Below are positions 20,324 through 62,399 of a stretch of DNA of 64,000 nucleotides, one piece after another. Position 1 is the stretch's first letter. Every line of letters begins with the position of its first letter. The stretch lies in the NCBI GenBank assembly GCA_947650285.1, contig CANTFL010000174.1, positions 248,001-312,000 of the forward strand, read 5' to 3'. The translations under genes and the position numbers were made by a program. This DNA is from Hyaloperonospora brassicae (Eukaryota; Oomycota; Peronosporomycetes; Peronosporales; Peronosporaceae). The notes beneath the pieces were generated by a model, which searched no databases, had not been told where the DNA came from, and worked only from the letters and a program-made list of their open reading frames with translations.

Positions 20324-20857
20324 TGTAACGGGGTTACACAACATGTGTGTGTGTAACGGGTTACATAACATGTGTGGTACACAAAGGAAGGAGTCCCACT
20401 AGAAATGATGTTAGAACACCGTATCAATTGTCAGGGGCTGACGTGTGCCAGCCACCGAATTAAGAGGCCATTTAGGAGGTATTAATTAGAACAGTAGTGA
20501 CTAGGTTAAGGACGGTGTTCTGAGGTGTTCTTTTACATAAACAGGAATAAAGTTCAGTTCTCATTTTGATCAACATAAGACACGTGCCTCACGAGGAGTC
20601 TTGATCGTAAGAGCTAGCAACGACTGGAAAGGTATCTGCTCTTGAGCACTCTGTGCTGCGATTCTCTTGAATCATTTGGGTCCCTGGAACAGCGACCATA
20701 GGTTATCTGAGCTTGGTGACTCTCTGAGTCGGGTCCTTCGATTCATAACCTTAGCTCTCTGAGCTATTGAATCTCTGAGTCGGTTTCGTCGAAATAAAGT
20801 TGCTCGTTAAGCGTTAAAGTCTTCCTCTGACTTAAGGAGTTGTGTAGCTCTGCTACA
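20324..20857 (+). repeat. E1 5' LTR
   Basis: It begins TGTAACGGGGTTACAC and ends GCTACA. It matches 27482-27968 along most of its length, for instance the shared stretch around TCAATTGTCAGGGGCTGACG. It holds several tight stems such as GACTC/GAGTC and AGCTC/GAGCT with loops of about 3 nt. The primer-site region follows directly. Confidence 0.88.
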
Positions 20858-20916
20858 CTTGGTAGCACTTGTAGTCAATCTACTCTTGAGTCGGTAAAAA
20901 CTGATCCTCTGTGAGG

Positions 20917-21950: not shown

Positions 21951-22177
21951 AGGCGCGGTGCGCCCTACTGGGGAATAGCTAGGTTCTGTCACTTCTATAC
22001 GAGGCATAGTGAAACAGGGCTTATCCCCACAGATCTCTGTGCCCGTCAGCACAGAGCGTGGATACAAGACTGGCTTTTTAGTCGCCGAGGCGACAGTGAA
22101 AGGCTTTAAAAAGCATTGGTCGATCCTATTCAAACTCCGGAGCATCGTGCAATTATGCTCGACGTCGTTCCCTTGAG

Positions 22178-26525: not shown

Positions 26526-27372
26526 GACCAAGGACGATTCTCACCAATAGTGGTGAAAGCTGGTGGGTAGTTATGCACCGCTTGACCAACACTCACATCA
26601 ATCGGCACAGCCGGAGCATAGCGTGTGCGAGTTCGCAACTGGCCTCTGGTCTTAAGCTTGTCGTAATCATACCGAAGATTTAGTTTTAGACAGACGTCTG
26701 CCAGATCGGCACTTGCTCTAAGAAACAACACGCTGATGAGGTGTCGTTTACGATGCACCTAGCGAACAAACGCGTTGCCTTCTTCTTCTTCCTGAGATTC
26801 GCCTGCGAATAGGAGGATGCGTATTATTTTCATCGGTGGAAACGGTGCACCCTGTGCTTGCGTGTCAAATCGCAACTTGTATTGACTTTGAGTCGTCAAG
26901 TTAGGTTGCAGGTACCTCTCGCGAAGCACCTGTCAACTCGCAACCTCATCAGGAGATGTTGGATCAGCGCCAATGGGCCACGTTTCCAAGGAAAGACCTG
27001 TCGTTTGGCGTATACGTATTTTACACCGAGTAAAGTGAACAGATAGCCACGACGACCCTCAAGGGTTGCAGCAAGCTGCATACGGCGCTGAGCGCTCTCC
27101 TCTCGTTGGATAGCCGACTTTTGTTGATCATCGAGCGGATTGGCGATGATGGCATCGCTCACGATGGGTGTTTGATGCAGCGCCGGTGGCGCGTTGGCTT
27201 CGCCACGCTCGGAAAATGGGTTTGGTGCAGAAGGAGGCTGTGCCTCTTGCACTGATGAGTCGGACATTGTACTCTCTTCACCATAGATATCGGTATCGCT
27301 ACCATAGTTCACCTCCACATCAATGCCGAGGTAGGAAGAGAGAGTCGAGTACTCATTGTGTGGCGATGCCAT
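26195..27372 (-). CDS. Antisense open frames in the 3' region of E1
   Basis: An antisense ATG at 27372-27370 opens a 158-codon frame (to 26896) with an acidic, Ser/Pro-rich N-terminus (YGSDTDIYGEE, PNPFSERGEA) and a basic second half. A second antisense frame covers 26758-26195, overlaps the chromodomain coding region and ends in a Leu/Ala heptad-like segment (LSSLRETLSKTQSALDAM). The 27372-26896 part is not covered by a sense frame, so it is not a simple shadow; the 26758-26195 part may be. E2 has a similar antisense arrangement. I recognise no family. Function and expression are unknown. Confidence 0.4.
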
Positions 27373-27481
27373 AATGTTTCATGTTTTGCAAACCGTAAGG
27401 TTGAAGCGCACACACACCGTCCTCTTCGAGGAAAGATTTCGATTGACGTTTTTGTGGAAACGTCAGTCTAATGAAGGAGGG

Positions 27482-27968
27482 CGTAACGGGGTTACACGTC
27501 GACAGGGGTATGTACGGACAGTACATGTGTGGTACACACAAGGGATGGGATCCCCTTTAAAGTGATATTAGAACACAGTATCAATTGTCAGGGGCTGACG
27601 TGTGTCAGCCACCGAATTAAGAGGCCATTTAGCAGGTATTAATTAGAACAGTAGTGACTAGGTTAAGTACGGTGTTCTGAGGTGTTCTTTTAGATAAATA
27701 GGAATAAAGTTCAGTTCCCATTTTGATCAACAAACGACACGTGCCTCTCTGAGATGTCTTGCCAACGTAAGGAAGTAGCAACGCCTTGTTAAGGCAGCTA
27801 CTCCTTGTGCACTCTGTGCTTTGATTCTCTGAATCATTTGGTCCCCCTGGAATATCGACCGTAAGCTCTCTGAGCTTGTCGACTCTTTGAGTCGGGTTCA
27901 TTGAACCAAAGTTGCTCGTAGAGCGTTAAGTCTTCCTCTGGCTTGAGGAGCTGTGTGCCTCCGCTAAA
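27482..27968 (+). repeat. E1 3' LTR
   Basis: It starts CGTAACGGGGTTACAC (first base mutated from T) and ends GCTAAA, where the 5' copy has GCTACA. The tight stems are clearer than in the 5' LTR: GGCTGAC/GTCAGCC, AAGCTC/GAGCTT, CGACTC/GAGTCG, GGTTCA/TGAACC, GATTC/GAATC and GCCTT/AAGGC, most with loops of 2-4 nt. Confidence 0.85.
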
Positions 27969-28914
27969 ATTTCCATCCGTGCTCATTATAGCGTGTATAG
28001 GCATACACGATATCGTTGGTTCGGGATCTTCTTCCAATCTAAACAAATGATCGTATCTTTTGCTACTGAAACCTCCTCACGTACACGTACACAAATTATC
28101 GTGCCTCTTCTTGCTCATCTGATCCTCCATCTCGAACACGAATCTGTGGTATTACCCTCACTCTGGTCACTGCGTCTCGCTCTGTATTCAGCTCGCTCCC
28201 TTAGCTCTCCTCCCGCTACCTGCATCACGCAGCTCCCTCATCGGGATGCATCGACCGCCGCGTACCTATCTCACACCCGCTATCGTCACTCTTTTTTAGC
28301 CACCTGGCCATCTTCGGATGCCCTACATCTTGCTGCAGACCTAAGATTACCTACTTGACGGCTTTTGTGAAAACGTGCTTACTGATGTGCACACAATGGA
28401 AGAAGTGCCGAAAACATTGACCAACACAGCAACGTGAAATAGTACACTCGTCTCGTTCAGCTGCAATTGGTGCGCGCTTGCACGATCGCAACACATGATC
28501 GTTCAGGTGTGTAATGGGGCTCGGAGCGACCGCGACGGGTAGTAAGCGTATCTCCTTACGGCATACCTTCCTACAATACATCCCAGTGGGACATTGCCTA
28601 GATATGACGACTTTTCGTCGACCGCCCACACTGTGCTCAGCACAAGGATGCAAATATTGACGAAATGTCGACGCAATCTACCCGGTAATGCATAGGTGCC
28701 ATTGCATCTATGCGGTCGCAAAACCCAGTACAAGAGGTCCTTGTCCTTTAGATCGTGAGCACCAATCTGCATCAGTGTCCATTGTCGACGAGAAAAAGAT
28801 CGTTCTCCATTCAAGCATCGGCTGCAAAGAAAGGTGTACACGCGGTACGACACATTCGGCCGCACTTGCCGCGTCTACAGAAGCAGTGAGTAATGTATCT
28901 CATACCTTGTGCAG
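27969..28914. other. Intergenic between E1 and a solo LTR, no gene seen
   Basis: About 950 bp. Open frames on both strands are under 125 codons, overlap each other and resemble no known protein. I see nothing else here. Confidence 0.5.
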
Positions 28915-29362
28915 TGTAACGGGGCACGCCTTGTGTCAATTCAACACAAGGTTGTGTGCACCCGACGTCACGTACACGTGGCGTGAGGAAGCGCAGCGAA
29001 GTAGGCGGAACTCGAAAGTTCTGTCTAAGGGAAAAGCAGAACTGTATTTAACATAGTTATGTTTTCTTAATAAACCATCTTTGTCTTGAGCTAACTATAT
29101 TAAACTACAATCTCCTATGTGGGTTTCTTGCTCACCATCCATTTCGCGCGTCCAGCAGCGATTGGTGGTTAATCTGGTTGATGTACCGTGAACATCAACC
29201 ATCAGGTGGAGCAACCCATCAAAGAAACATGACCTTCAGGGGTAATAGTCCTTTTAACCTTGCTCCTTACTAGTAATGTCGATTGAACATTATCTTAATA
29301 GATAATGTTTAAAAATTGATACAGAGATATCAATTTTTATGTAAAGGGCTCACCCCGATACA
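28915..29362 (-). repeat. Solo LTR of an E2-related family, reversed
   Basis: Read in reverse, this aligns with the E2 LTR. The right end CCCCGATACA pairs with TGTAACGGGG at the left. Internal landmarks include GCAGAACTGT, CGCGCGTCCAGC and GATTGGTGG, with E2 counterparts in the same order. No internal retroelement sequence follows on either side, so it is a solo LTR. Its stems occupy the same places as those in E2 but use different bases (see findings). Confidence 0.8.
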
Positions 29363-30864
29363 CGCAGCGGGTAAATACAGGGCATGACACATATCAACCT
29401 GTCATTTGTCGGTGAATATAGTCGACAGTGGTTGCAGGTGGCGCGGACTTTGACGCGACAGTAAGTGATACACAACTAGGCCCCTCTGCTCGATAGCAGC
29501 CAGCATCCCAATCAAATCCATAGGGTTACGACACTCGTATCAATATTCCATGAGGACTTGCGTTGTTGCGCTTGCTGTCTACCTTGCCGAGATACGTTGT
29601 CACCAAAGTCGGTACACACAGCACAGGTGAGGCCTATCGCAGTCAAGTTGTTGCCAAGTGTCACCAGCTGGGAAGCATTGTCTTGATCAAAGCAAATCAC
29701 AGCCGCTCCTTTTTGGTGCGGGTGCTGACGACAAGACCTGCGAGCTGAAGAAATTTACAGCCGTGTGGTAGCATTGCTTACGCATGCATACGAGTCGACA
29801 GTTTGGTTTGACAAAGCGCTCAATATCAGGACGTTCCAACAACTAAAGCAGAAACGTACTGGTGTGATTCTGCACTAGACAGCAAGAAAGCAATACCTAC
29901 TTTCGAAGGAATTCATGTACACTGCTGCTGCGTTTTTCGTGGAAACATGCAGTTGCCGGCTAAAGGAGGTAGAGGGCTTGTGCAGAAATCGTATACAGTC
30001 GAGAAGCCCTGCAGCGTCGTGCGCTATACGATATATAGTCGACCTTTCCATCAGGTCGTCTGTGGATACCTCAGTCTCTACTCAGATTTACTCTCGGTTT
30101 GCAAAATGCACAGCGAAGCCAATGGAGCTTCTATAGGGCGACCGAGTATGTGTTGTGCTGCATTCACGCGCAGGGAGCGCATACAGCAAGCCGTTCGTCA
30201 ACGTTCAAAGAGCCACAATGTTCAGATTACCGTCCATCGGTCAGCGTAACAGTAAAACCTCTGCTTCTTTCTCGCAAAAAGCTCTCGAAAGTACAGCTTA
30301 TCACCAATCGAGAGGCCATTGTCTCGTTTAAAAGTTCTTCGGCGTCTGATGGTATCGTCACCTCTCAGCTGGAACACGACACTAAGTCGCTTGGACAAGA
30401 TGCATTCGAGCACAGCGACTCGCAATCGACGATTTCTTGTCTTGCATAACACTAGCCAAGTGATGACGCCTGACAGGTCTGCTATTGTTCGCAGTGCGCT
30501 ACCGCTGACAGCTGATGCTTGCAAGAGTGCAACGGTCAATTCGCAGCAAGGATGGACCGTGAAAGCATGCGTCGTGTTATGCTATACGTCAAACACACAG
30601 ACTACCTTCGTCAATCTCACTACTAAAAGGCGCATCGTCAAACATGACAACGTGCTGTCCTAGTGGTAAAGCGTGCGACATGCGCAACCGTTTCCGGACA
30701 CAATCGTCAAAACGGCTTATCAGTATCACCCCACACAGAAGATTGCTACCACGTCGTCATTTATGACACCTTCCACCCAACTCGCAGACATGCGGTGCCT
30801 TGATTCCGTGCATGTTAGCTGTACGGTATTCATCGACCGCTTGCTTGACATACGTCAATTAGAT
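29363..30864. other. Intergenic, no gene seen
   Basis: Short overlapping frames only. The right end is the 3' flank of the minus-strand DAHP synthase gene. Confidence 0.5.
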
Positions 30865-39384: not shown

Positions 39385-39774
39385 TGTAACGGGGCAGCCC
39401 GTTACATGAAATTGTCACTTTGAGAAAAGTGACAACAAATAATATGGAGTGAATATTCTTTGAACAATATCACCGAAGCGGTGATATTGAAGGGTCGACC
39501 AAAGAGTCTGTTCATTGGTTGATATCTTGATGATATCAACCCACCAATCGCCGCAAGACGCGCGCAATGAGTGGTGACAAGACGTTACCATACACTCAGT
39601 TATATTAGCATAATTAAGTTAAGTCAAACAAAGAGACAGTAGTTTAAAGACTTAATTATATTAATATAACAGTTCTGCTTTTACCTTACCTACGCTTCCT
39701 CGCTTGCCTTGTGTACGTCTGTCGGGGCACCGATACCCTTGCGTTAAGTTCACGCAAGGGTGTGCCCCGTTACA
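39385..39774 (+). repeat. E2 5' LTR
   Basis: It ends TG...CA and is built largely of hairpins: TTGTCACTTT/AAAGTGACAA, ATATCACCG/CGGTGATAT, TTGATATC/GATATCAA and ACCCTTGCGT/ACGCAAGGGT, plus a terminal stem TGTAACGGG/CCCGTTACA. The stretch TGGTAGCACTTTGTAG follows it from 39778. Confidence 0.93.
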
Positions 39775-39777
39775 CCT

Positions 39778-39786
39778 GGTAGCACT
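39778..39786 (+). promoter_or_regulatory. Probable primer binding site
   Basis: TGGTAGCAC lies three bases past the 5' LTR. Its first eight bases are complementary to the CCA-ended 3' terminus of animal-type initiator tRNA-Met, the usual Gypsy primer, but the match does not extend further. The same word sits after the E1 5' LTR, so the assignment to a primer site is reasonable and the tRNA identity is a guess. Confidence 0.5.
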
Positions 39787-39818
39787 TTGTAGTCCTTCCA
39801 AGGACCACAACATCCAAC

Positions 39819-40973
39819 ATGAACATGTTGGATGACGAAGAGACCTTTCACGCCACGCGTGAAGGGTTTACCCATTTGAGTGACATCGAATGGAGTGCGG
39901 TAGAACGAATGAGTTCCACCGTAGGCGAGTTCGCCATTAGCGCCATGTTGGAGTCTCTAGACAGAGACCAACAACATGCCGCTATCGCCAAGTTCATACA
40001 ACATGAACTTGTCGCCGAAAGAGAGAAAGTAGCCTTGCTTCACCAGCAAGGCTCTCAACAGGCCGAGCAGTTGAGAGAACTCGGTGCTCAACAGACAGAG
40101 CTGTTGAGACAGCAGCAATTCCATGCTGCTGTGGGCGGGACGGCGCATGCGCGACGTCCCGAAGTCATGAAAGTTGACATCTCCAAGTACAGCGGAGTCC
40201 CGGAAGACTCCCTGTTACTATGGTTTGTCGAACTCGACAGAGCCCTAAGGGCTCGTCGCGTCGAAGATGAGCAAATGAAACTCACATTTGCTCAAACCCA
40301 CTTGGCAGGGCGTGCCAAAACTTGGTCCCTGGGGCTCGAGAGTAGCGACCCAAATGTGTTTAAGTCGCTAGATGACTTCAAGTCCCGGCTCAGACAAACG
40401 TTTGAGCCGCCACGGGCTGAGTTCAGGGCTCGTTCAGAGCTCCGGAAACTCAAGCAGGGTAAGCGTGATGTGCACGCTTACGCACAACACATACGACTCC
40501 TTGCGAGTAGTATAACTGCTAACCCAGTTCATGAACACACGTTGATTACGGTGTTCATGCAAGGGCTCGCAGAAGGGCCCGTCAGGAGCCACCTGTTCCG
40601 CCTTGATCTGAATACGCTTGAAGAAGCGATATCAGCCGCGGAACAGGAAGACTTTAGCATGATACAGGCTCATGATAGCTCAAACTCTTACCGTCCACCA
40701 AGACGACAAGAGATCGGAGGTCCAGAACCAATGGAGCTCTGCTATGTTGAGAGCGAGAGACCTCGCTCTTCAAACAACAAGCGATTGCAGAGGTGCAATC
40801 GCTATCAGAAGCTAGGGCACTACGCATACGAGTGTAGTGCTCCACGCCCAGTACCAAACAGTACTGAGCGAAATGGACGACCATTCGCCAAGAAGGGCAA
40901 TGGGCGTGGGTCCAGCGCTGTTGCGAAGCCGCAACAGCGAGACGGACCATCAAAAAATGGTCGGGGTCAGTAG
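39819..40973 (+). CDS. E2 gag polyprotein (intact frame)
   Basis: A 384 aa frame opening at ATG 39819. The N-terminal third is Gln/Glu-rich and coiled-coil-like (QQAEQLRELGAQQTELL). A retrotransposon gag core follows (AGRAKTWSLG, FEPPRAEFRARSELRKLKQG, DVHAYAQHIR) and then a basic C-terminus. The zinc knuckle near residue 327 reads CNRYQKLGHYAYEC; the second Cys of the usual C-x2-C-x4-H-x4-C is a Tyr, so RNA binding by this knuckle is probably impaired. The gag ends in TAG; protease begins after a short gap, as in related elements. The DNA of this frame consists of consecutive hairpins. Confidence 0.9.
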   Translation: MNMLDDEETFHATREGFTHLSDIEWSAVERMSSTVGEFAISAMLESLDRDQQHAAIAKFIQHELVAEREKVALLHQQGSQQAEQLRELGAQQTELLRQQQFHAAVGGTAHARRPEVMKVDISKYSGVPEDSLLLWFVELDRALRARRVEDEQMKLTFAQTHLAGRAKTWSLGLESSDPNVFKSLDDFKSRLRQTFEPPRAEFRARSELRKLKQGKRDVHAYAQHIRLLASSITANPVHEHTLITVFMQGLAEGPVRSHLFRLDLNTLEEAISAAEQEDFSMIQAHDSSNSYRPPRRQEIGGPEPMELCYVESERPRSSNNKRLQRCNRYQKLGHYAYECSAPRPVPNSTERNGRPFAKKGNGRGSSAVAKPQQRDGPSKNGRGQ

Positions 40974-41023
40974 GGGCGGAGCGCCCTACTGATCCAGCAA
41001 CCTCAAGAGAATTTGCAAATCTC

Positions 41024-44000
41024 TTGACGAAAGTTGCTCCAGATACACAATCATTGTGTGTCGCTGCACCTGGTGATGACGTTTCGCTCATCACCTTGAA
41101 GTTGGAAGCGACAAATGATTTGTCGTTTCGTGCCTTAGTAGACTGTGGGGCGTCGAACAACTTTGTTCGTCGCCAGTCACTAGAGGGTCGTAGGCTCGAG
41201 TTCGTTGAGCGCGACATTCCCCTCACGAGGATGACGGTGCGCCTTGCAACAGGCGCATCGATAACCGTTGAGAAACGTGTATTAGGAATCCACTACACGT
41301 TACAGGGCGAACAGTACGATGATGACTTATACTGGATCTGGATGACAAATTTGATGTCATCCTGGGATTACCTTGGCTCAGAAAGTACGAGCCAAGGGTG
41401 AGCTGGCAGCATCGATCCGTGAAGATGCCTGCCACTTGTTCATCAGATGGCCATCTGATGAACATCTTGGAGCGTCCACAAGCGTGTGGATGTTCTGCGA
41501 GTGAGTGCGATGGCCTCACTTGAGGTTCGGTCGTTAGCACGACTGCACAAGATCACAGTGTAGTTGATCACTACACTGTGGAGCAAGCTCCCGGTGGCTG
41601 TACAGAAGTACAGGCTGCGCCGAAGGTCCACCACTCGAATAAGTCGAGTGGACCGGGACATGGATGCATGCCTAGCGAGCAGCATCTTAGACAGAAGAAA
41701 CCTGTTGCCCCCAAAGGGCAACATGGAAATCCTAGGTCGACTGGAGAGTCGACCGTAGAGGATCGGTGCCTGACTGTGGTTGAACAGCCACAGTCAGAAG
41801 ACGTCGAGGGAAAAAGTCCCCACGTACTTGAGGAAGGAATTCCTCAAGAGTCACTTGCTGAGGGATCAGGCCCTAAGCAACCTGTGGAAAGAAGTTCCCA
41901 AGAAGTAACCGAGACGTTGAACGTCTTGGTTAATGGCGGATCAAGCGTAGGCGCTTATACGCTTGATCTGATTGTGCCTCCGAAGTTAACTTCGGAGATA
42001 ACTCAGTTGCCAACGCTAGAACCGAAACGGTCCTTGCGTGATCTGCGTAGTGGCAAAGTCAAGCAGATCTGCATACTCGTCACAGAGGATGAGTATGTGG
42101 CCGATATTCGGTCGGCAACAGTATTTGCTGAGAACGAACGGGTTTTCAGCAGCTCGTCGATGGACGAAAGTGTAGTCGATGAGAAGACTCGGATTGAGCG
42201 ATACGCGTCCCAATCCTGGGAGTCACTTCAGGCAAATCCTTTGTACAAGGATTTGATCGAATTCAGGGATGTGTTCCCTGAATCTGTACCGTGCAAGTTG
42301 CCTAAGGACAAAGGCACTCGACACGAGATCGAGCTCAGACCGGGCTCGAAGTACTGTGTCATGAAGCAGTGGCCACTGCCTCGTGAACAAGTACTAGCGA
42401 TCGACAAGTTCTTTGCCGATCGCTTAGCAGCGGGCCATGTGAGGGAATCAACATCCCCTCACAGCTCTCCGACCTTCTGTGTGCGAAAGGCCACAGGAGG
42501 GTGGCGGATAGTGCACGCATTCAACAAATTGAATGCTGCAACGGTACCGGCTCAGACGCCGTTACCGAGGAAGGACGTAATCATAGATGGTATGTCAAAG
42601 AGTACCATCTTTTCGCCCATGGATCTGATGGATGGATTCTATCAGATCCTCATGCGTGAACGGGACATCCCGTTCACGGCAGTGATTACCCCCAGCGGGA
42701 TGCTGTGGGAGTGGCTAGTTATGCCACAGGGGATGAGCAATGCCCCTGCAACATTCAACAGATGTGTCACAAATCTGTTGAGACCGGTGCGAGACTTCGC
42801 ACCGGGTTACTTCGACGATGTGTTCGTCCATAGCCGGGCTATGGACGGAAATAAGGACGTTGAAGTTCACAGAACTCACGTTCGTCAGGTTCTTTTACTT
42901 ATGCGAAAGTATAAGTTGTACGCCAACCTCAAGAAGTGTATAATCGCGGCTAGCTAAATACCACTTCTCGGGTGCATCGTGGGCAAACACGGCGTACACC
43001 CTGATCCCGAAAAGATCAAGGCGATCACCGACTAGCCAGTGCCAGTCGATGTCAAGGGACTAAGGAAGTTCCTTGGTCTAGCGGCATACTTGCACAAGTA
43101 CTCGCGCAACTACGCCGAGATGACTGTTCATCTTTCTTGCTTGCTCAAGACAAATGTCAAGTGGTCATGGAACGCTGAGTGCCAGCGTTACTTTGAGGGT
43201 ATCAATCAAAGCTTGATGCAATCGCCGATATTGGCGATTGCAGATCAGGACAGACCATTTCATGTGGTCTGTGACGCCAGCGATTTTGCAATCGGCTGTG
43301 CGTTAATGAAGTTCGATGCAGATGGCGCGGAGCGCGTCATCTATTATCAGTCGCGTCAGCTGCAAGCAGCTGAGCGCAATTACCCAGTGCATGACAAGGA
43401 ACTCCTTGTCATGAAGTACGCACTGGCTAAGTTTCGCGTCTATCTCTTGGGAGATAGACCGTTTGTTGTCTATACGGACCATGCGTCATTACGCACGGCC
43501 GTAAACAGCCCACACCTCTCGCAAAGGATGGCGAGGTGGCTGTCTTTCTTCGCGGAGTATAACTTCTCCGTGGAGTATAAACCAGGACGACTCAATGTCG
43601 TCGCTGATGCGCTTTCGCGCCGGCCCGATTTCGAGCCGGACGCACAAATCAACAGTGAGGATAAGCCCACTGTTGCGACACTGTCAGTCAGTGTCTCGTC
43701 GTCAAGTTTACTTGACGACGTACGAAAAGCATACGCGGAAGATAAGGATCTTCTGCGATTGATGGATCATCTGGTGAATCTATCCAGTAAATACATGAGG
43801 GATTTACCGGCTTTGTACCGATCCTCCTCGGATCGGTATAGTACACGCAACGGATCGCTGTACTATACAGCTGTTGCCGACGACACGCCTCGTGTCGTCG
43901 TACCCGCTCATCATGATTTGTGTTTACGCATCATGTATGAGTGTCACGATTCCCCAACAGGCGGGCATTGTGGTAGAGAAAAGACTTACGTCACGGTAAG

Positions 44001-45862
44001 TCGTGACTTTTACTGGCCACGCCAGTATCAGTTTGTCCGCAAGTACATACGTGCTTGCGAGGTTTGTCAACGGGTGAAGCTTAGTCCTTCATCCCGTGCG
44101 CCATTGCAGCCTCTGCCTGTTCCGACAGAGTGCTGGCAGTCCGTTTCAATGGACTTCGTCTTCGGTTTTCCCGAATACGCTCACAAGAATAATGGTATTC
44201 TTGTGTTTGTTGACCGATTCAGCAAGATGGTCCATCTTGCTGCTGTCCCTGAGTCGATCAAGGCTCAAGGTTGTGCTCGTGTCTTTCTAGACACGGTCTT
44301 TAGACTCCACGAGTTACCCCGTGAACTCGTATCCGACCGTGACCCTCGGTTCACGGCGGCATTTTGGTAAACCGTGTTCCGTTCTCTGGGAACAGGATTG
44401 AAGATGTCTACTTCTGACCATCCCGAAACAGATGGTCGAACGGAACGTGCGAATCTTGTCCTCGAAGAGATCCTTCGAGGATATGTCCACTCGTTTCCGA
44501 GTTGGAGCGAATTTCTACCCATGGTGGAATTCGCAATCAATAATTCGGTGCATGCTTCCACACAGCACACACCGTTTTGCGTAAATGGCCTACGCCATCC
44601 ACGTGTGCCCACCCTTCTAGAGTGTGACTCTTGGATAAGGGGGAGGGAATCGCTCGAGCAAAAACCATTTTGGCTCTTGCTCATCACGTGTCGACGCTAA
44701 CGTCGTCACGTATGATGCCGATGTCGATCAAGTCGACATCGATGAAGAAGATCACCTCAATAATAGCGATGACGCTATTATTGACTCGGATGATGATGAA
44801 GATGCTGGTATATTCAGCATCGTCAACGATTATGCCAGCGAGGAAGAAGACAACCTCGCTGAAGAAAAGAACAATTTCTTAGCAGTGCGCACGAAGCGCA
44901 CTGAAAGACAAAACAACGAGTCAGCAGAGAACTTCCTGATGACTCGAGAAGAGGTAGTCCGTTTCGTTCAGGACTCCATCGCAAATGCGGTGGACCGTCA
45001 GAAACGGAACGCAGACAAGAATGGAAGAGCAAATGTTCTTTCATTCAATGTTAATGACCTAGTACTACTGTCTACGGTAAACTTACCTGGACACGCAGTC
45101 ACTAGTGTCGGCAGTAGTTTACTACTGCCGAAATACATTGGGCCATTTCGAGTGTTGCATCGCAAGGGCAATGCATACACACTCTAATTGCCACGTAAGA
45201 TGCGCACGCATTCTACGTTTTACGTGGGGAGGCTCTGGCCGTACTGTCAGTACGAGCCTTCTTCTTCGGATGAAGGTAGCCCCCACGTTCAAGAACATCC
45301 ATCAAGTTCTTGTGTTCGCGCTCCAGACGATCCGTCTGGTCGCGCAGATATGATACCTCGGAACTCAACCGAGATATCTCCCCGCGAGCTGTCGCCAGCT
45401 CGCCGAATAGGGAGCGGACATCTTGCTCGACCTGAAGCTGAGCTGTGGCGTAATCGGCGCGGTCTCATGCCCGATCAGCCTCGAGATCCTTGCGGTTCTT
45501 CCTCACGGTATCAGTCAAAGCGTAGCGCCGGTCGTGCTCGTGCTTCAAGTCATCGCGCAATTCATCGATTGCGCGATCCATCTCGTAAGGGTCGAGATGG
45601 TGAGCAGAATCATCTGGAGGAGGTCTTTCCTCCTCCACCACATCCTTTGGTGGATGCTCACGGTGGTCAACGCTTTCTAGTGGAGCGTATTTTGAACTAC
45701 CGTGACGATTCAGAATCAAGGACGAGCTACCTCGCCCAGTGGCGGAGGTATCCATCTTCTTAGAACAGCTGGGAGCCCCGCTCTCAGCTGTTGATGGATG
45801 TGCCTGGTCTCTTCCGCCAGTATGACGAGACCCATCTGATAGGTCCTCGGGCCCATCGTTAA
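41024..45862 (+). pseudogene. E2 pol (protease, RT, RNase H, integrase, chromodomain) with several breaks
   Basis: The protease segment around 41130-41175 has ALVDCGASNNFV, where DSGA or DTGA is typical. RT runs 42220-42960 with TPSGMLWEWLVMPQGMSNAP and the YFDD catalytic box near 42809-42820. RNase H (43210-43620) has FHVVCDASDFAIG and DHASLRTA. The integrase has an HHCC-like entry (near 43960-44080), then MDFVFGFP, SDRDPRFTA and DGRTERAN. A strongly acidic linker lies at 44700-44880, then the TREEVVRFVQD and LLPKYIGPFRVLHRKGNAYT segments and a chromodomain at about 45640-45830 (RFLVERILNYRDD, YLAQWRRYP). Breaks: frameshifts near 41330 and 44635; in-frame stops at 42955, 43033, 44368, 45185 and 45761. 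It cannot make an intact polyprotein. Confidence 0.92.
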
Positions 45863-46836
45863 ACACGCGCTTTTGGCGCTTGTAGACGGATTGCAAGTTT
45901 GCAATCGCGTCACGCATCTCCTCCGAGATGTGTGCCCTTCCCCAGGGCGAACTTAGGGATACACGTCCCAATGTGCACGCTGCGAGTTATCAACACAACT
46001 TGCACAAGGGTCTCCCCATGTGAGGCAAGGAATGTCTGCCTCACTCGACAAACAGTGCAACCGGTACCTAGCACCGGTTGGCGTTCGCTTTTCGAACCTG
46101 AGGCGTACTGCCTCTTGTTTCTTGAGCCACCCTTCTCGTCCAAAATTCTTTACGTTTTGGACGAACGCGTTCCACACTTTCAAAAGCAAGTTTTTGTCAC
46201 GCTTTTGGTTGCCGTTGTACCATCGATTTGAAGGAAGACATCGAGATGAAAGTCTTCCTCAGCGCAAAAGTTGCTCGCGCTGGGACTCAAGCCGTGAAGC
46301 TCAGTCACATCGAATAAGGGTATTCGATGGTGTTGGCTTGTCTCGTGAGACAAGCTATTGATGAGCCGTTCGGGCAAACGCCACGGCTTCAGCTCATCAC
46401 GCTTCACGGCGGTACCCTTGTCGGTACCACGGTTGTCAGTATGAAGATAAGTTGCACCATCGTCAAGTCGCTCGTGCAAAGGAGCACGAGCTTATCTCGG
46501 TGATGAGCAAATAAACTCATCACCAGATTCGTCATCACTGCCGAACAGACTGTGATGCAAATCACGAGTCCGTTCGTTCGGCAGTGGCCTTGGAGAACAC
46601 TGAGGTGTCGCCGGTGAGCGAGACGCCTCTGGTGCATTGCCCGAGTCAGACACATCTGACTCGCCAGAGTAGATGAGGTCAACGTCGAGGTCATCATGCG
46701 CACGCGGTGAGGTGCCGCGTGCACCTGCAGCACCTGTTGCTGCAGGCAAAGAAGGAGCAGCAGACGACGAATCGTCTGCCGCAGAAGCTGGCACAGGCAC
46801 AGACTCTGTGTGCCTTGAGTCACCCCGCATAGACAT
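45465..46836 (-). pseudogene. Antisense gene-like frame in the 3' part of E2, broken
   Basis: From an antisense ATG at 46836-46834 one frame runs to a stop at 46492. It continues in the same frame after that single stop down to 46180, then a second frame (46189-45953) and a third (45971-45465) carry on. The first part is acidic and Ser/Ala/Pro-rich (VPVPASAADDSSS, LFGSDDESGDEF). The middle is basic with Cys residues (FGREGWLKKQEAVRLRF, CLTWGDPCASC). The end, which overlaps the chromodomain, has a charged helix (EMDRAIDELRDDLKHEHDRR). About 1 kb (45870-46836) has no competing sense frame, so the antisense coding look is unlikely to be a shadow there. I know no homologous family. E1 has a parallel arrangement. 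Confidence 0.45.
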
Positions 46837-46968
46837 GTTAACTATGCGAGGTCGAGCGGAAAGTGAATGAAACGGACCCAACAAGTGCTCCCTGTCCCAA
46901 TGGTGACCAACGGGTGGCCGCCATTATTTTCGATAGTCACACGGTGACTATCAGTTAAGGGTGGGTGA

Positions 46969-47360
46969 TGTAACGGGGCAGCCCGTTACATGGAAATGTC
47001 ACTTTAAAGAAAGTGACAACAAATAATATGAAGTGAATATTCTTTGAACAAAATCACCGATAATGGTGATATTGGTGAAGCGACCAAAGGGTCTGTTCAT
47101 TGGTTGATATCTTGATGATATCAACCCACCAATCTCCGCAGGACGCGCGCAATGAGTGGTGACGAGACGTCACCATACACTCAGTTATATTAACATAATT
47201 AAGTCAGGTTAACAAAGAGACAGTAGCAAAAAGACTTGATTATATTAATACAACAGTTTTACTTTCTCCTTATCCTACGCTTCCTCGTTCGCCTCGTGTA
47301 CGTCTGTCGGGGCACCCGAAACCCTTGCGTTAAGTTCACGCAAGGGTGTGCCCCGTTACA
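46969..47360 (+). repeat. E2 3' LTR
   Basis: It matches 39385-39774 with scattered substitutions. A purine-rich stretch (AAGGGTGGGTGA) directly precedes it and could be the polypurine tract. The stems are kept although some arms differ, for example TGTCACTTT with a four-base loop, and ATCACC/GGTGAT. Confidence 0.93.
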
Positions 47361-49333
47361 ATTGTGACAGGGTAATGTGGAAACGGGGTGAAGTGGGAGC
47401 TTGAGAAAGCGCAGTGCGCCCGTCATTAAACGCGCAGTTCGAATTCTGTACCCAGCAGCTGCTCTCGGCAGACGCACGTGCGTTTGCTGTACTTTGCAGC
47501 TCAGCATCTTAATTGAGACAAAAAATCAGCTTCACGTAAAATAGCCTTTTTCTGTTGATACCTGGATGACATTTGTGGTACAAAAGCAGTCGAGAAGAAG
47601 CCGCAGTCGATGACTGATAGAAACCGCCGTTGCTGTTGATGACTGTGAGGCATCGGTAGTACAATAGAGAGCCACGAGCAGCCCACAGCGTGCAATGGCA
47701 ATGAGTATGTTTCTCCAGCTTTTGTAAAGTCATTGACTGCCATTCAAGAGAGTTTAGATGCGGTTCCAGTCGTCTTGGCAAGAGCGAGCGTTGCGATGCA
47801 GCACTTGTAAAGAGCTACATGACACGAGTGGACAGTTTGTCTGCCTAGTTTATCCGCCAAGTTGACGGATGGTAAAGGCTGTCGACCAGCTCGTGCATCA
47901 TCTGATCCTGCAACTCTTTGACGGATCGCTGCGATCGATGTGTCAGGCATGTGAAACGTAAAACTGACATTTAAACTTGCTGCGCATGGCGATACACACT
48001 TGCTGCATGTGGCACTCTTTGGTCCGAGAGCAACATGCTGCCATGACTTTATCGTCCCTAAAGTGATGCATAAAAAACCGTTTTGCCTCACAAGCACGTG
48101 CTACATAGACATATAATCGAGTTGTGCGCATGCCATTAGACGTTACGGTCGTCGCTCGTACATTATCTAGCGTGCAGCTTGCAATAGATTGCCGCAGATA
48201 TATTATACACGCACTTCGATTGACGCAACAGGTCTTTCGATCATCGCGTAGCGCTACCTGGAAAGCTCTTTTGCATCAATAGCGGTGCGCTATAGTTTGA
48301 CAAACCTCACTTTTTACACGCCCGGCGTGTACGGTCACCGCAGGCTAGAGCAGAAACGCTTGAGGGTAAGAGCTTTGCCTCTCTTCTTTTGAGCTTGTAG
48401 CACGATGGGGTCCCCACCAGACCGACGCAAGCAACGGTCGTGCACGCGTTCTTTACGACACTTTCCGACGACTTTAGCCGCACCGATAAAAACTCGACGA
48501 CAAAGCATCTTGACTCTCGACACCATCACGAAAAAGCACTTTGTTGTCCTTTCTACGCTTCTAAAATGACCTCGTGGGCGGCTTTCAACGTGATCAGACC
48601 GAGCGGCGCTCGAGCGTGCGACCGCCAAGACGGTGTACTTGACGTCATTTCACTGCACCTATCGCGCGCCGGACTAGTTGGCTTATTTGTGCGATAAAAC
48701 CCTCGCCAGTATGGATTATGATGTGCAATCATTTGAAGCGCATCCACGCGCGTATGATCTACCATCATCACGTCTTCAGCTCCGATATGTAGCGTTTGTC
48801 GGTACAAATTTTTGTTAGGGCCGACGAAGCACCTCGAGTGGCTGTTTCCATAGCGAGTGGCCGTGAAGTTTGGTTCAGGTCTTCCAGCACGATATACCGG
48901 CCTTGGGATTGCATAAGATCAGTTACCTTCTTTGCTTTGTGTAGTATAATATCCTACTTTGGCTTCGGGATGTTCGTTGATCTACTGCCCGATAGCAACG
49001 GCGCCAATTTATCATTGGTCAGTGTCTCTGGTACTGGGCAGGGATTGCGCTGCTCGGCTTCTGCCAAAGGCCACCAGAGCGATCTACACTGTGGCGCTAA
49101 CCAGTATATCCTTATCGCCTATTTGGCTCATAACCTGTAAAAACTGGGTTCACGGTTGCAAGGCTCTTATTTTGCTGGTGTATCTACGGAGTGGCAATCT
49201 GTTCTGTCGACACCAGAACTCAGTCGCAACTATACACCCTACGTGCCTGAACGCAACGATACCTCGAGTCGTGGCCAGGTACTGTGGGTCGCGCTAGTGT
49301 ACCCACGTTCGAACACATATTTTGCACAATGCA
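47361..49333. other. Intergenic; begins with a diverged copy of the effector upstream region
   Basis: Bases 47370-47507 resemble 38865-39035 upstream of the EER effector (shared words TGCGCCCGTCAT, CACGTGCGTTT and GCAGCTCAG). The rest shows only short frames. The palindrome GTAGCGCTAC sits at 48248-48257, echoing the word found near two gene starts in the 32-35 kb island. No gene is supported. Confidence 0.6.
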
Positions 49334-49735
49334 TGAAACATTGCACCCTCCGCTTGTACTGACACAGTACAAGCTACCTACGTCGGCGCGGTGAAGGCAG
49401 ATGTTTTTAATTATCACGTAATCTACGTGCAGAGGAAGGTTCAATCTAAACAACAAACACGATAAAGAGAAGGTAGAAGTGAAACTGTATTAAATATAGT
49501 TTCATTTTTCGAGTGAAAACTATGTTGATCTTTCTTTGACCATATGACGCTACAAACTTCGAATATCGCTTCTTGTTCACCACCCATTGCGCGCGTCAAG
49601 CGTTGATTGTGTAGCGGATCTCCATGGGCTTTGCTGTAGTGAGACTTTTGTCTCGACGAGATACTTCGTTCTTGACGAGAACACGACTCAACGAGTCTGC
49701 TTATCCCACTGAACTTGTAGTCATGGCCCAAGAAA
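49334..49735 (-). repeat. Decayed reversed LTR related to E2
   Basis: Read in reverse it lines up loosely with E2 LTRs. A stretch near 49580 (CACCACCCATTGCGCGCGTC) matches the E2 LTR segment around the same internal position, and the outer end (about 49334-49375) has the stem CTTGTACT/AGTACAAG where E2 has CCTTGCGT/ACGCAAGG. Other stems are TGAAACT/AGTTTCA, GTTCT/AGAAC, GACTC/GAGTC and GAGAC/GTCTC. Both boundaries are approximate. Confidence 0.6.
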
Positions 49736-52700
49736 AACTTCTAGATTAAAACTATTAACAGCACAAGTGCTAAAGAGTACGTGTCTTGTTAAGAATTTCA
49801 GCTCAAGTGGTCAAAGATGCCTTAGCAAGGTACGTGTCTTATACAGATCAACATGCGAGCTAACGTTTATTAACTTTTAACACGGAAATAAATCCTGCAT
49901 ATTTTGTCCAAATGTAAGGCTGTACCCTCTACTAGCGTATCTGAAACGTAACTTCGGTTGCTTAAAAGGCACTGACTGAAATGAGTGGTACACCACATAG
50001 TACACGTACCTAGGCCATGGATGTACTACCAAAGTGTACCAGCGTCACAGATTCGTTCAGTCGAATGAAGTAAGACCTCTGTTGATCAATACGTCGATTA
50101 GTACCGAAAATTACCTCCAAAGAGAGATTTTTCTTCAATATTTGCTTTATCATGTAATTCTGGCAAAGTTCTTACTATTCGATAAAATTCTATTTTACCC
50201 AATCTGATGTCAATGACATGTAGCAGGATCACCCCGTTACAATGCGCGTCCGTTGCCAGGATAGTTCTGTATGTACTCGTTCGAGTATGTCGTGTGCTGC
50301 GTCGCACCCGAGTCGACTTGACAGACTTTTCCCGAATGATGACACCAGCCTACCAGAACAAGAACGGACAGTCAGTGGAATCATCTTGGGTTTGTACGAC
50401 ATTTTCTCTATGTCCGCTGCTGCTCCGCTTTATTGCGGATTGGTACTTGGCACGTGTCAATACGATGCCATGGTTTACCATAGTAGTGACCAGCACTAAA
50501 TGTCTGCGCTGGTCGCTCACTTTGCGATTGCCGTAATCATTCGCCGTGAGCAACTGAGCTCGAGTGTGCGCGCATCCATGAACGCCGCAACCTTTATACG
50601 CTACAAGTCCTCGTGAAGAACCCTAGACATCACAATCTATTGCGTTTGGAGAATGCACGCGCGACTTCGATGCCGTGATTTGGATATGGCGTGACACAGA
50701 GTACCAAGAAGCATGGTCACCAATCTTTGTTGCTAAATAAAGGACCGAGAACGTGCAGCTTCTCTTCCAACTTAGTCATAATATTGTCATGCTCTTGTAC
50801 GTCATCATCATCTTCCATCGATTCTGTCAGCAAGTGTCAGTGAAGGAAAAAGAACCCCTGAGCGAGGTTTTACTTCTCAATGTGTCCATTGACTTTGATC
50901 CTGGATCTTGCACGTCGCTCGTCGAGCAAGTCAACAAAAGCTTCGAGATTTCATCGCAAGATAGACATTGCCAGCGGCTCGCGTGTATTACTCGCGAGAA
51001 GTCACTGATGAGCGAAGTGGAGCAGTACTCAAGCTTGCTCACATCGCTTTTGTGACCTTCCACGACTCGCGTTTCTACAGACCATTTGCATCCTGAGATC
51101 CCACGTGTAGAACTCAATGCCTTCGACTAGCCGACGCGGGCAGAACTTGACGACGATGGCCTCTTGGAAAGAGCGAGGTCTTGGCAGGGAAGACAGGGTT
51201 GCGCTTATACATATGACTTGAGTCGGCCAAGCGCTAATTGGATAGAATGCAATGTGTAAATATGTTGACACTTCGTTCGCTCACTCTTCCGCTTTTCCTC
51301 AGCCCACCGGATGCTTCGCAATCATGCAATTGATCATCTAGTCGCCCGTTGCTGACGTTGATTGAACTATATCTGACGTTACAAGGGCGACAACGAACTG
51401 TGGGCTTTACGATGGTCATCACTGCTTCAATCAATCACAAACTTAATGTCGTCATACGATACTCCGTCGTGGCTCAAGGCGTCTTGGCAACACTGCCTGT
51501 ATGTTCGCACGCATTTACTACAGTGGAGTCTTGTAAGCTATCACTGCTTGTACTACAAATCTGTCAACCCGTCATATCTTTGAGGAGGCAAAGCTCTGGT
51601 GAACCTCGAAACCCAGCGCATGGGCGTCAGCCTGCAACGATTGTCCACATTAGAGCTGATACCAGCACCCGACTGCAGGCGTCTTCACATAATGACTGAC
51701 GACTGAGTCAACATTTCCATGACTAGAATCGTCTGACGCCTACATATGATTGAAAAGTATAGCACGAGCAGTAGACACATGGTCTTCACCAACAATCTTA
51801 CCATCGCCAAATTGCGAGTCATAATTTGAAATGTCCAAAGTTTGGTCCGTGCACGAAGCCCCTCCACGGTCTTCCAAAAAAGTGCTTTGGATTTATGGAT
51901 GATTAGCCCACGAATCGCAGCATGCATGGTTTATAATTGTGACAGTTTTGACCCGTATATAAGAGCATGTAAAAAACAAAATAACTCGTGTACCAACCGT
52001 GTACTAGTATGGCAAGCAGACTGTCCTGCAAAGTTACATCAATTGAAGTCAACATGCAAACACTACAGTTGCTTCTTCCTTCAGCGATCCGGTTTAGTTT
52101 GCTTTTTCTCGTCGCGCACGACCTCGCGGCATACGTCTGATAGCAGTAACTGTCCAGTTGCACAATAATCGACAAAAAGTTACTGGTGCTTGATGCTACC
52201 TCAGATACCTCAGAAGTTGCGATGTACATCTTAGACCTCTACTACAGCTTAGCAACGTGTGTACCGTCACAGCTATTGTATAGGATTGTTATGGAAACTC
52301 TTCCATGCGGCTCACGACTGTCATACAGTTTTTCCTTTGTGTGGTGAGTTGCAATGGATGGCATTCCGGAACTTGCGTTCGGAAGACAAGGGCCGTTTCA
52401 GTTCATTCGAGGCCGCACTATCCCTTCTGCACTCAAGGCGTATTTGATCTGTCTCGTAACATCGCGCTGGTGGTGACGCTTCGGACGCTGCAGTCACGAG
52501 GCAGTCCTATAAACTTGTCGTGTATCGTCAGTCTTTGGAGCATTACCATTGAAAGTCCGGTCAGGCTGAGAAATCGTCTGCGTCCCTGGTCGACGATTAG
52601 CTGACACCGTCTCAAATGCACCTGGTGAAAAGCAGCGGTACTCGTGTCACCACGAGCGTTGCAAGTAGAGGCGTCTATCAGCACAACAAACCGCTGCTCG

Positions 52701-53247
52701 CTCACAAGAAGCAGCAACAGATCAGCTCTGAGTTTACAGGCCACTCTAAAAAGAAGTACTTCCATGTCCAGCCTTACACAAGTCCCTTACACGTGAGCAG
52801 AAAAGAAGGGGTGACGTAGTCCACGACCAACCTGCTCTATGCCAAACGGCGCAATCATACAGAGCCACCTCGAGAGTCCGATCGAGCTATAGTTGAGGAA
52901 GTAACGCCGAAAAAGGTGTAATTCAGTGTCACAATCGAACGGTATTCCGTCCGCACACATGCGTGTGAAAGATGTACGCACCCGCCTCACCACGCCTCGT
53001 TGGTCCAAGATCCCTCTTGGTCGTCCAGCTTCATACAACTCTCGTGTCAACATGAATCTGTACGCGAGATCTGGTGCGATCAATTTTATATCACCCAATC
53101 CGAGCGCGCCGGAATTCAACAAATCAGCGAATCGCAGACCGCCGTGTGTCCGGCCGTGCGAACGAGTGTGTCCGTTCGACGCGCGACGCTTCACCAAGCA
53201 CACCCACTACAGTAAGGCCGGCCGGCCGGCCGTCTTTCGTCGAGGTC
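49736..53247. other. Intergenic, no gene seen
   Basis: About 3.5 kb with many small overlapping frames on both strands, none beyond about 140 codons and none resembling a known family. The right end is the calmodulin promoter. Confidence 0.5.
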
Positions 53248-53265
53248 CTCACTTTTGAATTTGCC
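53248..53265 (+). promoter_or_regulatory. Oomycete initiator plus flanking motif of calmodulin
   Basis: CTCACTTTT followed by GAATTTGCC fits the oomycete core promoter pattern of an initiator (YTCANTYY) directly followed by the flanking promoter region (roughly CAWTTTNYY). It lies 23-40 bases before the calmodulin ATG, the normal distance in this group, where leaders are short. Confidence 0.65.
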
Positions 53266-53272
53266 TCAGTGA

Positions 53273-53737
<465 letters not shown>

Positions 53738-59937: not shown

Positions 59938-62399
59938 TTAACCACCTGCACGCCGCTTGGTCGACGGGCACTTTTTGTAGCAATGGAACATGCGCAAGCA
60001 GTCCATTGTGCGATTCTTGCCGCAGCAACACAACTCCTTGCACACGGGACAGCCATTCTCAAAGACGCGATCGCCATGCTCTTCGTGCATCTTGTCAGCA
60101 CATCTCGCGCAAAAGATATGGGGACATATGGAGCACCACACGTTCTTCTTCCGCAAATTGCCACACCGATGACACGATGCTCGATGGTGCTTCAGCTTCT
60201 CCAGGTGGTTTCCACCAGCGCTGTTCGATTGAAGTTGCTGAAACGCTGGTCCGACTGCTGCGATCATGGGCGAACTGGCTGCATCGATCGGATACGTCGG
60301 TGCTTCGCGGACTGACCTGAGACTTTCGAGTCCAATCCTGAGATCGTGTTTTGATCTCAAAGTCGCCATGAAGTTGCCATTGCTGCCATCACTACCAGTT
60401 CTGGGCGAGATGTATCCGTAATTTGCACTGCCATTGTGTGGCAAATCGTCATGGTGGGCTCGATCGCAAAACCTTGGACCATTGCTCACGCACGGCTGGT
60501 TGTGCGTCGATCTTACCTGCTTCTGCTGCTGCTGTAGAGAGTCAAGACTGGCCCACGTAGCTCCTGTCGATACGGGTGAGCCAAAATTGCTCGTGATGCT
60601 GCTTTCGAAACCAGCGCTCGACGTTCCCCACACGGATCCACTGTCGGAGTCTGGCACTGATGCAGCTGAATAGATGTAAGATGCTTCATTCACCGATATT
60701 GGAGGCAGCTTGCTGTCACACCCCAAATTCGTGGTTGGTTGCAAGTCTTCGGGGCGTTGGGTCAGCATCTCAATGGCAGCAAGGGCTTGCTCGACACGGT
60801 CGACAACGGCTTGGGCTTCGTGCTGAGAGCTAGGGACCCACGCGTTTTGATTCACAGACTTCAATGATGCCGGATGTGCACTCCACTCTCGTAACCGGTG
60901 TATTGCACGCTGCAATGCTTGCCGGTCTTGCTCACTTACATGGACATCCATACCGTTGTGCATCATCAGCAGCTGGTTCCAGTAGAACCGTAGAGCTGCC
61001 CAGAGCTCGGCGTTCACGTCGGCCATTCCCCAGCCCGATGTGGTATAACCTCGATACTGTACCAGTGTCTGGTGCTGCATCTCCAGCAAGACAACTCCCA
61101 GTTGTGCTGCCATTGCCGATGTGCACGTGAAAAGACCGTAAAACAGCGAGCAGCTTTGCACGCCGCCAGCAAAGCGTGCGAACATCCAGCCAGCTGGTAT
61201 AAGCAGTGTGCTGCCTGCACTGACGGCACACTTGATGCACGTGTCCACTCTTTCGGCCAGAAAGATCGTTGCAAAGTCTCGATCGTTCTTCCAAGCTTGA
61301 TAGATCTTCCAATTGGTGTCAGACGGCGGAATGAAATACACCCAGAGCTCGCCAGCAGATACCGAGAGCCACACGCACTGACCTCCAGGGGTCAGCGTGA
61401 AGTCCAGATAACTATTGCACTCCAGAAATGCACCCAAGACGTTTGCGCTCGCACTTGCGCTCGCTTGTGGTCCGTTGGCACGGCTCGAAGGCAACAAGGA
61501 ACGCCAGTCCACTCGAGCAACAGCCATTGGCGGTGCAACCCGGAGCTGCACGGGCGTGTCAAGTACCTGGAATTCAGCATTCGCGACCGACTTGTCAGCT
61601 TTTCGCCCATGCTCTTGGAGGTAGTGGGGACACGCTTTGAGTTGCCACGTCAGTGCTGTCAGCTGCACTTTCGCCTGCGTAGCCACGTCGGTCGACTGCA
61701 CGAGGACTCGATTGGTGGCCAAGAGCTCTGCAATCACAGCAGCGTCAAGTACTGGCAACGATGCATCCAGTCCGGCCACTCGATGGCTGTGGCCTGCAAA
61801 AAGCACGGGCTCATCTAGCGCTCTTTGCTGCAGGAACGAGGGGTGCAACGCGTGAGACGGGACGACGTGGACTTCAGATCGAGCGTCTGCGATTGCACTG
61901 AGAAGGCGGCGGAAGTGAGCCGAGCTCTTCTGATGAGGATGAGGATGATGCTGGCGTGACGCTGTGATTGCATGGCTCGGATAGACAGACGGGGGTGAGT
62001 AGCTTCTCGTGTTGACGCGTCGCCCGTGACCATTCGTCTGGGCTTGAAATAGAATGATTGCATGATTACAAAAACAGACAAGACAACGTCGTAGAAAGGA
62101 CGACGAGAACACGTTATCAAGATGACTTTGTCTGCTTCGTCTTTCGTCCCTTTCTGTCCCGTAGCCACTCAACGCGGCAGTAACAATTACGTACAATAGA
62201 CAGTAGATACGCCGTAGATACCGCCATGCTGCTGGCAGTCGGGACACGCCCACTTGGCGCCAAGCAGCGCGTCGTGCTCGGTCACGGGTGACACGCAGGC
62301 AGCGTGTAGCCATCGAGTACAAAAGTGGCACTCGACAAGCACTGTGGCTGCACTTGGATCGACGGCATGACCGCATGCGGCGCAGAGGAGCGGGACCAT
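59938..62399 (-). CDS. PHD finger, JmjC-like (iron ligands lost) and 4CXXC zinc finger protein
   Basis: Exon 1 (62399-62222) encodes a C4-H-C3 PHD finger (LCAACGHA, VECHFCTRWLHAAC, WACPDC). Donor GTATCT is at 62221; the acceptor is probably CACAG before 61961 or CAAG before 62042, both in phase. Exon 2 runs to the stop at 59938. Its JmjC-like domain follows the KDM7/PHF8 pattern (NSYLDF, VYFIPPS, VDTCIKCAVSAGSTLLIPAGW), but the HxD pair reads T-L-T (Thr at 61396-61398 and 61390-61392) and the distal His is Phe (61180-61182), so Fe(II) binding appears lost. The C-terminus (about 60180-59950) is a Cys-rich 4CXXC_R1-type finger (CHRCGN, CSICPHIFCARC, CPVCKELCCCG), known from plant JmjC proteins and CDCA7. 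It is likely a chromatin reader rather than a demethylase. It converges on the SPOUT1-like gene, 121 bp between stops. Confidence 0.85.

Follow-up and report, generated by a model that had tools for sequence, protein, structure and literature searches.

Results

A Ty3/Gypsy element filled with short perfect hairpins

The 64,000-nucleotide stretch of the Hyaloperonospora brassicae genome analyzed here (contig CANTFL010000174.1, positions 248,001 to 312,000 of the forward strand; referred to as the window) carries, at positions 39385-47360, a long terminal repeat (LTR) retrotransposon that we call E2 and whose sequence is filled with short perfect hairpins. Its two LTRs, a direct repeat of 390 bp at the 5' end and 392 bp at the 3' end, enclose gag and a pol with the domain order reverse transcriptase (RT) - RNase H - integrase, as identified with Pfam (the rve match being sub-threshold), and these features place it in the Ty3/Gypsy group (Metaviridae). 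The parts of the element and the stems discussed individually are collected in Table 1.

Counting as a stem any perfect, non-overlapping inverted repeat with arms of at least 7 bp and a loop of 3-20 nt, we found 107 stems in the element (13.4 per kb) versus 65 in the remaining 56 kb of the window (1.2 per kb); with arms of at least 9 bp the counts are 52 and 8. The gag frame contains 16, where the mean of 100 codon shuffles is 1.9 and that of 100 shuffles preserving both codons and dinucleotides is 2.2; the RT frame contains 21 (1.9 and 2.4) and the RNase H/integrase frame 18 (1.7 and 2.1), corresponding to z scores of 11-15 over codon shuffles and 11-14 over codon plus dinucleotide shuffles. 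An open stretch of 3342 bases in another copy, L012, holds 58 stems, while the maximum in 100 codon shuffles was 8. An initial annotation of this DNA had described the whole element as packed with such hairpins. All six arm pairs that it quoted are found at their positions, and codon shuffles reach only about a tenth of the observed count. The sliding-window folding that it had suggested as a check gave energies well below those of shuffled sequence, with z averaging -4.86 over the 66 windows folded in a C41 copy and lying below -2 in 60 of them.

Nearby host genes had been said to lack the pattern, and this was borne out by the controls tested. At arms of at least 7 bp, z did not exceed 1.1 in four other open reading frames (ORFs) of the window, of which one has a Pfam domain (EMP70, 7498-8727), or in blocks 12000-20000 and 48500-53500. 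Two control ORFs folded in the sense orientation, one of them encoding DAHP synthase, gave z values of 0.01 and -0.1. The exceptions were ORF 59938-62421 (z 2.7 at arms of at least 6 bp) and the one stem with an arm of at least 10 bp in block 48500-53500 (z 3.6). Block 20001-30000, which contains another Gypsy element, was raised, with 19 stems versus 8.8 (z 3.4).

Table 1. Parts of E2 and individual stems in the window
Feature	Position	Strand	Details
5' LTR	39385..39774	+	direct repeat with 46969-47360; itself a chain of stems
Examples of 5' LTR stems (arm, bp)	39385-39406 (9), 39412-39435 (10), 39465-39489 (11), 39517-39541 (10), 39735-39761 (10)
Stem with loop inversion	39811..39834	+	GAAC (four C41 copies of E2); GTTC in E2b, a sister copy
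gag open frame	39819..40973	+	Pfam Retrotrans_gag 1.6e-16, Ty3_capsid 2.5e-09
pol, reverse transcriptase part	41578..42957	+	Pfam RVT_1 2.3e-22; open here, frame broken elsewhere in the window copy
pol, RNase H and integrase zinc finger/core part	43039..44370	+	RT_RNaseH 3e-32, Integrase_H2C2 3.1e-19, rve 4.1e-06 (below cut-off)
Stem with loop inversion, arm 10	43697..43720	+	TTTA; TAAA in one C41 copy
New stem of the E2 lineage	43836..43868	+	three left-arm changes: two synonymous, one Thr to Ser
Stem with loop inversion, arm 10	43878..43900	+	CCT; AGG in copy L050
Stem with loop inversion	44157..44175	+	TTT, arm 10 in fresher copies; AAA in L013
Stem with loop inversion, arm 10	45108..45131	+	TTTA in window copy and L020; TAAA in 14/18 copies
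3' part up to 3' LTR	45188..46960	+	25 stems (arm at least 7) vs 2.0 in dinucleotide shuffles
Stem with loop inversion, arm 10	45552..45577	+	TCATCG in 17/18 copies; CGATGA in L013
3' LTR	46969..47360	+	carries the stem chain of the 5' LTR

The gag start codon lies inside the stem at 39811-39834, and the sole ORF tested in the 3' part (45188-45763) has no Pfam match. The chain in the LTR comprises about seven stems, most of which recur in the ten LTRs compared from five elements and in a solo LTR. The window copy is old or rearranged: its two LTRs are about 90% identical and differ in stem details, no target-site duplication flanks this insertion (ACCGG upstream, ATTGT downstream), and its frame is broken by 14 stops in 3342 bases. 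With LTRs some 10% apart and unmatched flanks, it is perhaps a recombinant of two insertions.

Stem arrays in other copies and in related families

The host assembly (100.6 Mb, 898 contigs) contains many copies of E2, with at least 40 matches to a 1.3 kb piece, all of at least 96% among the matches listed. At 20 loci including the window we counted 58-77 stems per ~4.3 kb. The nineteen further copies, a comparison that the annotation had suggested, are also stem-rich, and the window copy has the fewest (58; others 64-77). Six of 19 copies are stop-free over 3342 bases. The closest named protein relative is from Peronospora effusa (81%), relatives in other oomycetes having been compared as proteins, with those of Phytophthora at about 60%; the viral contigs searched contained no relative. 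The host DAHP synthase is as much as 92% identical to that of Phytophthora and 83-89% to those of four named downy mildews, which places the host in the Peronosporaceae. The stem array is thus real, strong and common to related copies, and it is thinner in older ones.

L005 was omitted from the alignment of copies for its poor 3' match, and L019 from the counts of change clusters, loop alleles and third codon positions, which leaves 18 copies. L019 past about alignment column 4090 and L005 past about base 3727 are apparently recombinant or rearranged. What looked like a swap of five stem pairs in L019 proved to be an artefact of the misaligned tail of that copy.

E2b (82% identical), an old member of a sister subfamily, has 400 stem pairs in common with E2, from 851 in E2 and 515 in E2b, and L042, a stop-free sister piece (92%), has 18 stems in 1 kb, equal to E2 copy L002. 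More distant relatives differ. Over the 1 kb compared, E3a is ~69% identical to E2, and perfect stems number 1.6 per kb in E3a, 1.9 per kb in E3b and none in L054, a third family (52% in protein). At positions paired in E2, unchanged, singly changed and doubly changed pairs number 178, 144 and 19 in E3a (183, 133 and 24 expected for independent sites) and 286, 204 and 35 in E3b (287, 203 and 36 expected), so pair-change counts reveal no memory of E2 stems in these two relatives. The E2 stems therefore probably arose after the E3a and E3b splits, a dating that is only probable because the E3a and E3b copies are themselves decayed. Imperfect stems are in some excess in E3b (4.9 per kb vs 2.6 +- 0.4 in shuffles), and a weak excess of this kind occurs in E3b, E1 (below) and two other regions. 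In a second Gypsy family, L053 (48% protein identity; nine copies identical over the piece), five stems were present, a number matched by none of 1000 codon shuffles, and these stems are different from those of E2. L053 and L054 are each represented by one 601-base piece.

That the stems reflect chance, base composition, codon bias or misassembly is vanishingly improbable, this being refuted by three types of shuffle, by 20 loci, by the second-family piece and by the normal control ORFs.

E1, the Gypsy element at window positions 20000-29400 (RT at 23606-24067), has a milder stem excess and negative folding energy. The annotation had contrasted its RT segment with that of E2, and almost identical RT residues are indeed encoded in E1 with no stem there. 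The compared elements have far fewer stems, but E1 and some others are not wholly stem-free, retaining a weak signal. Strong stems at 29175-29339 adjoin an LTR-like match at 29026-29168, and E1 may be a decayed stem-bearing family. Two other element regions, C41:22000-29500 and C41:167000-174500 (in L023 and L037-L038), show modest negative folding energy over ~7 kb and are in part 65-67% similar to E2. A stem-poor Gypsy relative is present in two copies of opposite orientation, at C41:94745-101000 and C41:122900-128000, which are 100% identical over the 1188-base piece compared; this suggests that the inverted duplication is recent or that it comes from the assembly.

Shape and strand symmetry of the stems

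A well-kept copy has one perfect Watson-Crick stem per ~60-65 nt, with arms of 7-12 bp (mostly 7-10) and loops mostly of 3-10 nt. Arms are most often 8 bp long and do not exceed 12 bp in the copies counted, and loop length peaks at 3-5 nt and falls to background by ~15, as in real hairpins. The spacing of 30-50 bp first reported holds at arms of at least 6 bp taken jointly over 19 copies (46.5 nt) and not for the window copy at arms of at least 7 bp (~75 nt). Regular spacing was rejected, as the gaps look random (coefficient of variation 1.03, one copy). It had further been proposed that the hairpins sit inside conserved codons and bend synonymous choice, and the stems do lie in conserved codons and favor permissive codon registers: among 1058 stems in 19 related copies, the 3-3/1-2 register accounts for 19% and the other two for 38% and 42%.

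The annotation had offered a structured RNA genome as one possible meaning. On this explanation, classic selection at the RNA level would keep the sense genomic RNA in a genome-scale ordered structure for packaging, stability or evasion. The folding result, 60 of the 66 windows lying below a z of -2, speaks for it, as do the loops, which are purine-rich on the sense strand (278/481 vs 51.5% outside, p 0.006, one copy), and the spread of hairpin energies, which is narrower than with random arms (standard deviation 3.15 and 3.10 in two copies vs 4.0 +- 0.2). In the same two copies, arms are longer in AT-rich stems (rho -0.26 and -0.33). No common motif suggesting a protein-bound packaging signal stood out in the 3-5 nt loops, which were inspected without a formal motif search.

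Base-pair preference argues in the other direction. Over 19 copies, a copy averaged 89.2 stems with 817.6 bp when G.U pairs were allowed and 97.0 with 870.7 bp when C.A pairs were, so G.U adds no more pairing than C.A; stems with arms of 9 or more numbered 52.1 and 50.8 per copy, and composition alone predicts 12.2% (G.U) and 12.7% (C.A). Single internal mismatches in four copies, G.U versus C.A, were 58/42, 24/25, 36/31 and 0/8 under four settings, of which only the first leans toward G.U as selection on RNA would require. Stems are not GC-enriched (53% vs 51% in the remainder), and the antisense strand folds as well as the sense strand (mean z -4.89 and -4.86), so that neither G.U tolerance nor folding sets the RNA sense strand apart. 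With no G.U preference, no GC enrichment and equal antisense folding, what is kept is not ordinary sense-RNA stability, and we regard classic RNA-level selection as decidedly unlikely. Of the original suggestion, constraint on the stems gains some support, and selection for RNA stability is not supported. The uniform energies, longer AT-rich stems and purine loops nevertheless conflict with the missing G.U and GC preference, so the molecule under constraint is not one that we name confidently.

Stems show less variation than loops and flanks

Across the 19 copies, columns with shared variation make up 29/1304 stem sites (2.2%), 119/2533 sites outside (4.7%) and 28/493 loop sites (5.7%). At third codon positions, shared variation affects 11/348 sites in stems versus 62/766 outside (p 0.0016).

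The LTRs, which are not known to encode any protein, show the same deficit in most comparisons. Between element a and the six LTRs of elements b, c and d, 0-1 of 135-136 stem sites and 13-23 of 218-219 others have changed, and between the window 3' LTR and element a 5/136 stem sites and 28/218 others. For three older relatives, 15-20% of the stem sites differ, versus 29-36% of others.

Most double changes within stems re-form a Watson-Crick pair. Relative to L042, three of four double changes are Watson-Crick, alongside six single changes (two of three, and two, for stems taken from L042), and relative to E2b 17 of 26 double changes are Watson-Crick. Within E2, with the L019 tail set aside, five pairs have Watson-Crick doubles and one has a non-Watson-Crick double.

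Loop inversions and template switching

The second possibility raised in the initial annotation was template switching in which one arm is the template for its partner. Six hairpins carry an exact inversion of the loop between perfect arms, a recognized sign of template switching; 0.17 are expected by chance among the 72 minor loop alleles that have two or more changes. All six have arms of 10-11 bp, and each inversion occurs in one or two copies (Table 1). Four alignments lie behind this count, in which some copies recur while the six hairpins are distinct; in the 1 kb family alignment E3b was omitted from the loop alleles, and E3a also from the inversion count. A seventh loop, TTGA/TCAA, was not counted as it has a one-step intermediate, and none of the ten LTR hairpins shows an inversion. 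In yeast genes, spacer inversions are reported only with arms >9 bp and are ascribed to inter-strand template switching (PMC8604942). The exact inversions therefore indicate that these repeats cause strand switching at some stage of the element's existence.

This evidence bears on the main rival to the reading that we prefer, a purely mutational ratchet in which template switching, by fold-back or between strands, copies arm from arm, so that imperfect stems are perfected and rehomogenized without benefit while protein and LTR function merely filter the outcome. Such a ratchet would explain why pairing is blind to composition and symmetric between strands, and the codon registers are filtered as in the coding palindromes described for hairworms (PMC6649704). 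An excess of change in left arms is predicted for fold-back during minus-strand synthesis, and between E2 and E2b, in stems with at least three differences, the left arm is more changed in 22, the right in 9 and neither in 4. When all arm sites are counted the bias is weak (107/853 vs 86/854, p 0.11); it is weak or absent against E3a (18 to 13) and E3b (23 to 20), and reversed in stems defined on E2b (1 to 5).

Several observations are difficult to accommodate by copying alone. Homogenization should not by itself slow the non-coding stems, yet LTR stems are slower than their flanks in most comparisons. Mismatched pairs persist: 17 polymorphic pairs have a minor state that three or more of the 19 copies carry (5 G.U, 8 C.A and 4 other, a mixture that also tells against RNA-level selection), and six of these are mismatched in most copies. 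Copy-specific clusters of change, 41 in number, gained complementarity in 3 cases, lost it in 14 and did neither in 24. For the new stem at 43836-43868, L042 and L043 hold intermediate states, L047 and L049 have a different base at one site, and the right arm is identical to that of E2 in L041, L043 and L049; a one-step arm copy as its origin is unlikely given the surviving intermediates. Several of the single-copy inversions may be events of host replication after insertion, and loop inversions by themselves do not explain how the stems originated. Template switching thus stands as a process acting on these repeats and is not supported as their sole cause, and the pure ratchet, while a serious contender, is in our judgment doubtful.

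Discussion

We tentatively favor, with a probability of about 0.42, a constraint on the local self-complementarity of the whole replicating element, to which occasional template switching is secondary. The constraint would act on a single-stranded form of the element, either the genomic RNA or, more likely, the cDNA or both strands, since G.U is not preferred and the strands are alike. Our guess is that the most likely gain would be that little long unpaired sequence is exposed to host silencing or to other factors acting on single strands. Template switching may then help to perfect the arms.

Several results weigh against such a constraint. The missing G.U preference and GC enrichment would be odd under selection on stability, and mean hairpin energy is just about one standard deviation below the random-arm value. 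The difference between stems and flanks is absent in the solo LTR (4/136 vs 8/219) and in the window 5' LTR (6/136 vs 7/219), and in the LTR comparisons stems were defined on the reference LTR itself, which favors unmutated stems. Between the 5' and 3' LTRs within an element, 7 differences fall in 5 x 116 stem sites and 46 elsewhere; this deficit is also post-insertion, and the constraint does not account for it. Third-position singletons are likewise fewer in stems (28/348 vs 101/766, p 0.015), and over all sites singletons differ less (10.5% in stems, 12.2% in other sites and 14.6% in loops), where post-insertion differences should ignore stems.

A broader proposal, in our view unlikely, is that palindromization is a recurrent state of the retrotransposons of this host, the E2 and L053 lineages independently gaining short inverted repeats, driven by a pressure that responds to the Watson-Crick complementarity of both strands and not to RNA stability. 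A candidate pressure would be escape from 25-26 nt small RNAs, a guide from a hairpin of 20-26 nt being self-complementary; the mean hairpin span is 23.8 nt in one copy. The 25-nt small RNAs of Phytophthora are described as mostly derived from transposable elements (PMC3804510), which makes escape from silencing a testable, though unproven, motive.

Whatever its cause, E2 demonstrates that an 8 kb protein-coding element can bear short perfect inverted repeats throughout while some copies retain long open frames. With its numerous copies, related families rich and poor in stems within a single genome, and the non-coding LTRs as a control, it offers a natural test of selection versus template switching in the making of palindromes. 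If host silencing is the pressure, the arrays would represent a new form of transposon escape; if copying is the cause, we would know of no more extreme case of template switching shaping a mobile element.

The initial annotation knew of no comparable element, and we likewise found no description of a hairpin-tiled retrotransposon in the literature searched, one library. The oomycete Ty3/Gypsy elements Chronos and Archon (PMC5348765) resemble E2 in their gag-pol domains, as do the relatives E3a, E3b and L054, which differ from it in having few perfect stems. The genome-scale ordered structure of some RNA viruses is similar in its dense local structure along a coding genome and its excess of folding energy (PMC7642675, PMC3695492), whereas E2 is an LTR retrotransposon with short perfect stems, no G.U preference and equal strands. 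Quasipalindrome template switching shares the exact loop inversion at arms of at least 10 bp and arms made more alike, but it is reported from single sites in bacterial and yeast genes and not element-wide (PMC7202029, PMC8604942). The mitochondrial coding palindromes of hairworms (Nematomorpha) are also perfect repeats inside conserved coding sequence, in permissive codon phases and gained and lost over time, and their authors discuss conversion, for example by template switching, as a cause (PMC6649704). Those palindromes reach 284 bp and nearly all are described as perfect, while the stems of E2, with arms of at most 12 bp and mismatched pairs common, are short (7-12 bp) and extend through a nuclear retrotransposon, its non-coding LTRs included.

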